Source: Holtermannia corniformis (Eukaryota > Basidiomycota > Tremellomycetes > Holtermanniales). Taken from it: a stretch of DNA of 64,000 nucleotides. Where the stretch lies: positions 62,001 through 126,000 of the forward strand of contig BCIJ01000008.1 of the NCBI GenBank assembly GCA_001599935.1. The letters are read 5' to 3'. Below are positions 16,637-19,058 of this stretch, one piece after another. A program made the translations under genes and the position numbers. Under the pieces are notes generated by a model. The model saw only the letters and a list, made by a program, of their open reading frames with translations. It was not told the DNA's origin and did no database searches. Positions within the stretch are counted from its first letter, which is position 1. Each line of letters starts with the position of its first letter.

Positions 16637-16731
16637 CGAGTGCGGGGCTGTAGCAAGGACAAGGGCATATTTGCATATACAAGATATATACTTTCGCGCG
16701 ACCGACCGATCATTGGACTGGCGGGCGGGTA

Positions 16732-18573
16732 TCAGCACGGCGTACCGGGGAGAGGGGCAAACTCACTCGGCTTGATCTTGAAGTGCAGCGTGATGAGCGA
16801 AAAGATGAAGCACTGTGAGAGACGTCGATCAGGCGCTGAATCTGCGTGACGAGTAACCAACTCACCCGCAAGTCTTGGATCAGGTAGTAGAACACGCGCA
16901 GGCCCTCGGCGTCGGCAGAGTCGTTGACGTCGGCTAGCGAGCCGATCTTGGCCGTCTGCAGAGTGTCAGTGACCGCATTCATGTTTGAATGATGCGCGAG
17001 AACAGCAAGGAATAAGAGTCTTGGTTGAACAGTGATACACGATTCGTCACTGGACGGATTGCACAGCGACCCAAGCGAGCGTCACAAAGGGGCGAATCCG
17101 GCATTGCTCTCGCGTAGAACGATCTACGAGCAACGACATGCTGCCAACGCTTGGTCGTTCCGCCGACTGATGAGACGCACCGACTCCTCTACTCAGCTTC
17201 AGAAAAAAGCTGACAAGCCTCGCAAGCGCTTCTCTCGTCACGCCGCATGTCCCCAGTGCACGATATCAACCAGCACCAGGCGAATAGATAAACTCCATTG
17301 CGCCGCGACTCGCGTCGCCGCACTGACCACCCCGATTTGGTCGCTCGGACAGTATCGTGATCAAGGTCCGGCGACCTAGCGCCTGCAGCCTGATTACGAA
17401 CGCCAGAGCAAGTCAAGTCATCCTGCCAGCACCGCATGTACTCGTTTCGCGACTTCCGTACCTGCTCTGAAGGTCCACTGCGCGACGTCGTCCGACAGGG
17501 CAGACAGCAACCAGAAGTTTTGTGCAACATCCTTGGCACTGGCGGGTTGAAAAGTGTCTCCGCGCCGTGACGCTCGGACTCTCATGGTCGACACTGACTA
17601 GGCAATGCCGTCTCATCAAGCCCGAACAGGAAGATGCAGCCGTGGCCACGCAGGATTGACGCAGATCAGCTCAATGCTGGCAAGCGCGGCTGCCAACAAG
17701 GTAGGTAAGGACGTTGCTATGCCTGGCTTGCCGATAACCGAATGTCTCAGCAGACATCTGAAGTTGATCACGCACACAGAAGGCTTGCTTTTCTTGATCG
17801 ATCTCGTGCAAGGACCAAAACAAGACAAGCTCACAGCTACGACGGCTCCTCTTCGAGCCGGACACGGCGCCTAGAGGCCAGCTTTGTGGCGATGTAGTAG
17901 TCGGCAGATCGTAGCGGAGACAGCCACGCGTATCCCGATGCCCCGTCGCTCGCGATCGTCAATGATCATCACGCACCTCGAACGAAATGTGCTCGCGGTC
18001 GATCCGAACTTCGAGCTCTTGCTTCCCCACAATGTTCTTCTTGGGCCATGACACGTCGTCTTCCCTGTGCATCTCGTTAGCGTCAAAGGCCATCGTATTC
18101 GAAGCTCCAGGTAGAGCTTCGTCCGATCCCGAACACTGACTTTGTGACTTCGCTCTCGCGCACGATCCGCTTCAACTCCTCGGCGACGGCGGGGCCGACG
18201 TACACTACGCGTCGACAGTCAGTCGGCTGCTGTTCAAGCAGGAAGGGAAGGGTGGTGGACGTACTCTCTTTGCGGATGAGCGAGTCGTTACGGTAGTTGG
18301 AGTTGTTGGCGTATCGCAGCCGCCCTGTGCCATCATGTCAACTCTTTCGCACACAATGATCCTACGAAGAGCTACAAACCTTGCCCGTACTCAAACTCCA
18401 AAAACTCGTGGCCATGCATGCCCTGGTGACCGGTGCTGAGTGTGTACGATCAGTCTCCGTCAGTTCTCCCGCATCGCAAACGCACTAGTACCTGCATCGA
18501 ATCAGCTCCCAAAACAGCAGTGATACAAGATCACTCACCGCAGGTAGAAGGGGTCCTTCTCAAGGTCAGCCAT
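16732..18573 (-). CDS. MAGOH: Mago nashi homologue, core exon-junction-complex subunit
   Basis: Eight exons (18573-18539, 18491-18486, 18435-18380, 18324-18265, 18204-18141, 18064-17977, 16955-16866, 16812-16732) sum to 480 nt, i.e. 159 residues plus stop. The protein follows Mago nearly throughout: [94 protein letters not shown] and a variant C-terminus [13 protein letters not shown] followed by [10 protein letters not shown]. Mago pairs with Y14 on spliced mRNA and acts in mRNA localisation and surveillance. Exon 2 is only six nucleotides and intron 6 is 1021 nt; both are unusual. Confidence 0.95.
16956..17976 (-). other. 1021-nt intron in the mago nashi gene
   Basis: GTGCGT donor and CTGCAG acceptor. 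Flanking exons join as HISFE | TAKIGSL, exactly as in Mago proteins, so no coding exon lies inside. The stretch holds only unsupported ORFs (for example 17189-17539, minus strand). No tRNA or repeat was recognised. Confidence 0.8.
18486..18491 (-). other. 6-nt microexon (GTACTA) of mago nashi
   Basis: Preceded by ATGCAG and followed by the donor GTGCGT. The flanking introns are 47 and 50 nt, normal for this genome. Joining CG + GTACTA + C restores Arg-Tyr-Tyr at the invariant FYLRYY motif. Skipping it keeps frame but deletes both tyrosines. Confidence 0.85.
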
Positions 18574-18986: not shown

Positions 18987-19058
18987 TTCGAGCGCCGGGA
19001 ATCGAACCCGGATCGATCCGTTGGGAACGGACCATACTAACCATTATACTACACACGA
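18987..19058 (-). tRNA. tRNA-Gly (anticodon CCC)
   Basis: The 72-nt cloverleaf has D-arm TAGTATAATGGTTAGTAT, anticodon arm GTCCG-TTCCCAA-CGGAT and T-arm CCGGG-TTCGATT-CCCGG. The loop places CCC at positions 34-36. The acceptor stem TCGTGTG / CGCTCGA pairs except for one T-T opposition at the fourth pair; the sixth pair is a T-G wobble. There is no intron, and a T5 terminator follows. It would read GGG codons. Confidence 0.88.

Follow-up and report, generated by a model that had tools for sequence, protein, structure and literature searches.

A 64,000-nucleotide stretch of the basidiomycete Holtermannia corniformis (contig BCIJ01000008.1, positions 62,001 to 126,000; this whole stretch is the window) carries on its minus strand the gene mago, which encodes a subunit of the exon junction complex (EJC). 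Six bases of this gene, GTACTA at 18491-18486, are very probably a genuine and normally included internal exon, flanked by old introns that would be recognized by intron definition and removed sequentially, with its Tyr-Tyr (YY) pair kept by selection. The grounds are the sequence itself, the splice signals, the exact reading frame, the conservation of YY and a signature of exon skipping in the annotations of other fungi, while constitutive inclusion, splicing order and the age of the exon are what we infer.

The exon (exon 2, 18486..18491) stands between an ATGCAG acceptor and a GTGCGT donor, bounded by introns of 47 nt (intron 1, 18492..18538; GTGAGT...CTGAT...ATGCAG) and 50 nt (intron 2, 18436..18485; GTGCGT...CTGAC...CTGAT...ACTCAG), an arrangement already described in the original prediction and borne out by the sequence. 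Both are GT-AG introns in which CTRAY motifs lie at a distance of 10-24 nt from the acceptor, and at 6 nt the exon is well inside the usual size of a microexon (internal, at most about 15-30 nt, between spliceosomal introns). Exon 1 (18539..18573, 35 nt, from ATG to TAC CTG CG) breaks off within an Arg codon, in phase 2; GTACTA provides the third base of this codon, one Tyr codon and the first two bases of a second, and exon 3 (18380..18435, 56 nt) begins C ACC GGT CAC. Joined together, the three translate as L-R-Y-Y-T-G-H and restore FYLRYYTGH, the N-terminal FYxRYYxGH motif of the Mago family being present only with the 6-nt exon spliced in. When GTACTA is skipped the frame is kept and the protein reads L-R-T-G-H (FYLRTGHQG). 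The coding pieces of the whole gene total 453 nt (150 codons and the stop), an exact frame as predicted, but they comprise eight other coding exons, nine in total, and not the seven others that had been counted.

To score the splice sites we used donor and acceptor matrices self-trained on 116 putative introns of 38-130 nt from 18 of 21 sequences of the same genome (three were excluded for runs of N), a noisy training set in which CTRAY was found in 68 of the 116 and the seeds were biased to GTRNGY donors. The eight GTs in the 103-nt stretch between exon 1 and exon 3 scored 10.1, 0.4, -2.7, -3.9, 0.7, 7.8, -1.6 and -1.6 bits, the GT of 10.1 bits being the donor of exon 1 and that of 7.8 bits the donor directly 3' of GTACTA. 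Among the seven AGs, the top two (4.2 and 4.7 bits, with the third at 3.5) lie directly 5' of GTACTA and 5' of exon 3, respectively. With two good donors and the two best AGs placed in this way, the signals delimit exactly GTACTA, and they outline the exon independently of the protein sequence. The mago span contributed none of the 116 training introns, and masking the locus gave the same picture. The stretch contains a single AG-NTAYTA-GT, and so offers no second way of supplying YY by this pattern. Dinucleotide shuffling of the stretch, repeated 100,000 times, produced the pattern with 35 nt or more to either side of it in 19 cases, none of them with a GTRNGT donor. The claim that this is a real 6-nt exon is thus supported by both the splice model and the shuffles.

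The two tyrosines encoded by GTACTA are strongly conserved in the proteins compared. Three protein searches, from which the best 120 of 1550, 3406 and 3929 matches were taken, gave 250 distinct proteins, and YY was found in 217 of these listed homologues (216 with YY before xGH and one with YY and a garbled upstream part). RYY is also present in all five printed alignments to Mago chains of solved structure (seven chains matched), and leaving out the exon lowers the score of the spliced protein against the Pfam family Mago_nashi from 236.6 to 222.4 bits, a loss of 14.2 bits. That YY is invariant in alignment A1 was not counted as evidence, because its 28 rows had been selected with YY. The idea that the exon is needed for two conserved tyrosines therefore held up well. 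Conservation also bears on recursive splicing, in which GTACTA would be not an exon but a regenerated donor of a stwintron, the 103 nt being removed in two steps. GTACTA does begin with GT, so that joining it to exon 1 recreates a GT at the junction, and stwintrons have been described in fungi (PMC5639578 and PMC6616335). However, the regenerated donor GCG|GTACTA scores 0.1 bits, under all 116 training introns and hence not a functional donor by this measure, and the product would lack the YY that those 217 homologues have, which makes this explanation exceedingly improbable.

The same microexon appears to be present in many other fungi, to judge from their protein annotations, and to have been dropped in 15 of the 250 listed ones (proportions in this set are not population estimates). 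These 15 lack exactly YY and read FYx[R/S]-xGH, with R left in nine and S in six. Another 18 comprise eight with a garbled upstream part ending S-xGH, eight truncated or garbled across the site and two otherwise without YY. If the exon is placed as in the window, between bases 2 and 3 of the Arg codon at one end and before base 3 of the second Tyr codon at the other, its omission brings CG or AG next to C or T and must leave either Arg or Ser. If YY had simply been deleted, R would not have become S, and the footprint accordingly points to a shared microexon. There are 20 short internal gaps in the first 135 listed proteins, 13 of which are the YY gap, and in an Ascomycota-centred alignment (120 proteins listed) YY accounts for two of three.

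The skip forms come from Vanrija albida, V. pseudolonga, Kwoniella sp. CBS 6097, Cryptotrichosporon argae, Naganishia cerealis, Leucoagaricus, Serendipita, Mycena vulgaris, Dacryopinax, Tilletia horrida, three Malassezia, Sporothrix thermara and Hapsidospora, which we take to include Agaricomycotina, Ustilaginomycotina and two Ascomycota. Several have very close partners with the tyrosines. The Hapsidospora annotation (P0141) and a protein with YY from a 969-nt jgi contig (P0157) match in 151 of 154 columns, the sole differences being S/R and YY; this contig is of mRNA-like length, is read straight through and may be a transcript, which would indirectly favour inclusion of the exon in mRNA, albeit in another fungus. 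Two Sporothrix proteins (P0131 and P0136) also share 151 of 154 columns, the differences here being YY and a single other residue, and for Tilletia horrida there are three annotations, of which P0054 has YY, P0084 skips it and P0101 is garbled. Since the close partners carry YY, a biological loss is unlikely; the exon looks old and easily missed in annotation, and the lack of Tyr-Tyr in some fungal Mago entries of public databases looks like an annotation error. Two further proteins in the set are unusual. In Rhizoctonia solani (P0014) the annotated Mago has a 16-residue stretch duplicated, a further sign of annotation trouble at the YY site, and P0121 from Mycena galericulata, Mago-like but diverged, carries several unusual substitutions, also lacks YY and is possibly a decaying copy.

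The skip forms also bear on the possibility that there is no microexon at all, i.e., a single 103-nt intron and a Mago truly devoid of YY. Such a protein is annotated in those 15 listed cases, a length of 103 nt fits the sampled introns and both outer splice sites are good. However, AG-GTACTA-GTGCGT would then be an accident of the rarity given by the shuffles, the splicing would remove residues that most of the listed homologues (217 of 250) have, and the close partners of the skip-form annotations do carry YY. We consider this explanation very improbable.

Several points weigh against a genuine and ancient exon. Its own donor follows a non-consensus exon end (CTA|GTGCGT). Two of the three queries were skip-form proteins, which favours such rows among the matches listed, and the ancestry of the exon is read from protein annotations: scans for the mago DNA of relatives gave 37 pattern stretches in viral_contigs and 66 in genome_contigs, with no mago among them. 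The Ascomycota skip cases are only two among those listed, making an origin before the split of Ascomycota and Basidiomycota plausible but thin, and independent gain of introns at the same two sites may be an alternative to shared ancestry.

Under the favoured explanation, an included microexon, the two short introns would each be recognized across the intron and excised one after the other, the consecutive removal following from the little room that six bases leave for two simultaneous spliceosomes, and the resulting mRNA would encode R-Y-Y-T. Intron definition is probably the usual mode in short-intron fungi, and it was reportedly described in S. pombe by Romfo et al. in 2000 (as cited in PMC11121469). 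The original statement that exon definition cannot apply to so small an exon was a fair inference, but the length of the exon is a lesser obstacle than it implied, given that these fungi would in any case probably rely on intron definition. Both introns, at the same positions and in the same phases, would be old, common to Agaricomycotina at least, probably to Basidiomycota and possibly to Dikarya, and the exon would have survived through selection against losing Tyr-Tyr from the first strand of Mago. Consecutive intron removal, often with the downstream intron first, has been argued for plant microexons (PMC8831610).

The exon could also be real but regulated, with Mago controlling its own mRNA via the EJC. 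If intron 1 were removed first, an EJC deposited on exon 1 would hinder the donor 6 nt beyond the junction; intron 2 would then be retained with an immediate stop, or the exon would be skipped, and less Mago would be made. Some observations are compatible with such a loop. Retention of intron 1 leads to a stop (TGA) at codon 13 and that of intron 2 to a stop (TAG) at codon 14. The donor and acceptor that skipping would use are a strong pair, 103 nt apart and inside the 5-95% span of the sampled introns (44-122 nt), and the genome has genes of the EJC and nonsense-mediated decay type, namely, of the Btz, UPF3 and UPF1 families. PMC6224609 describes a similar situation in human cells, where the EJC blocks donors near a newly formed junction, among them a donor that had been relocated to 6 nt past it in a KPNA1 reporter, and where cryptic microexons and recursive-splicing exons are repressed. 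The likeness lies in the involvement of the EJC and in the donor 6 nt past the junction, but the human microexons are cryptic and repressed, whereas the mago exon must be included and has no recursive donor, and the loop requires the correct splicing order. Immediate stops in retained introns are, moreover, common and require no regulation, and in Cryptococcus neoformans 98% of the intron-retention events in open reading frames (ORFs) were not raised by deletion of UPF1 (PMC5006051). We therefore consider autoregulation unlikely, and the suggestion in the original prediction that skipping might be self-regulatory is still speculation. Equally doubtful is a more elaborate version, in which the exon would descend from the ancestor of Basidiomycota and Ascomycota and would have been kept as an EJC sensor that couples the making of an EJC subunit to the splicing order of the two introns. 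With abundant Mago, the EJC at the first junction would disfavour the donor six bases on, and the mRNA would acquire an early stop.

Exons of six bases have precedents even among basidiomycetes. The P450 genes of Phanerochaete chrysosporium were reported in 2005 to have exons of 6 bp to 30 bp (PMC1184071), and 1-nt exons have been validated in plants (PMC8831610), so the suggestion that the mago exon would be among the shortest known in fungi is not fully supported. The Phanerochaete exons resemble it in coming from a basidiomycete, in the shortest length (6 bp, two amino acids) and in their small introns (PMC1184071), but mago is one single-copy core gene whose exon is apparently conserved at one site. 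Plant microexons of 1-15 nt, for example in APC11 and VPS55, are also coding, conserved, flanked by ordinary introns and often absent from annotations (PMC8831610). The mago exon differs from these in being fungal, in its very short flanking introns, in its gene and in being known here from DNA; the main text of that report nowhere mentions mago. Another fungal microexon is found in Xlr2 of Trichoderma virens; it is glucose regulated and alters protein function (PMC11121469), whereas any regulation of the mago exon is conjectural. In the search listings from the open-licence PMC literature, no microexon was named in mago.

What makes the mago microexon unusual is its apparent conservation and its host gene. 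If this two-codon exon has indeed persisted at a single position of a core gene through much of fungal evolution, it would provide a clean natural test of intron-definition spliceosomes on an exon too small for both of its sides to be recognized at once, and its location in the gene of an EJC subunit makes the question of feedback easy to test. There is also a practical warning, as the same annotation errors probably affect other genes.

Read on the minus strand, the gene begins with the ATG at 18573 and finishes with a stop whose last base is 16710. Its eight introns, all GT-AG, measure 47, 50, 55, 60, 76, 1021, 53 and 49 nt from 5' to 3'. Beyond the three exons described above, the coding sequence continues in exon 4 (18265..18324, 60 nt), exon 5 (18141..18204, 64 nt), exon 6 (17977..18064, 88 nt), exon 7 (16866..16955, 90 nt) and exon 8 (16767..16812, 46 nt), and ends in exon 9 (16710..16717), whose last coding piece has 8 nt including the stop TGA and runs on into the 3' untranslated region. 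The gene thus contains two very small coding pieces, the 6-nt exon 2 and the 8-nt exon 9. The spliced protein belongs to PF02792 (Mago_nashi), covering profile positions 1-142 of 142 at the score given above (cut-off of 27 bits), and the nearest Mago matches among those listed are from Kwoniella (91%), Cutaneotrichosporon and Vanrija, which marks the genome as that of a tremellomycete. A family search of the genome (20.2 Mb, 55 contigs) gave three exon matches, all within this gene, i.e., a single mago locus.

Intron 6 (16956..17976, 1021 nt) far exceeds the other seven introns (47-76 nt). Its sole copy in the genome, which was searched for a repeat origin, is its own place; an Rfam search of the window gave no match in this intron and one match in total, a tRNA elsewhere; and 17 ORFs of at least 40 amino acids overlap it, the longest of 116. 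None of these searches explains its length. An ORF at 16710-16982 (minus strand) has its own ATG within intron 6 and continues in frame into exon 7, and it could permit an N-terminally shortened form of Mago. A gene for tRNA-Gly with anticodon CCC, at 18987-19058, lies on the same strand, upstream of the mago ATG by approximately 410 bases.
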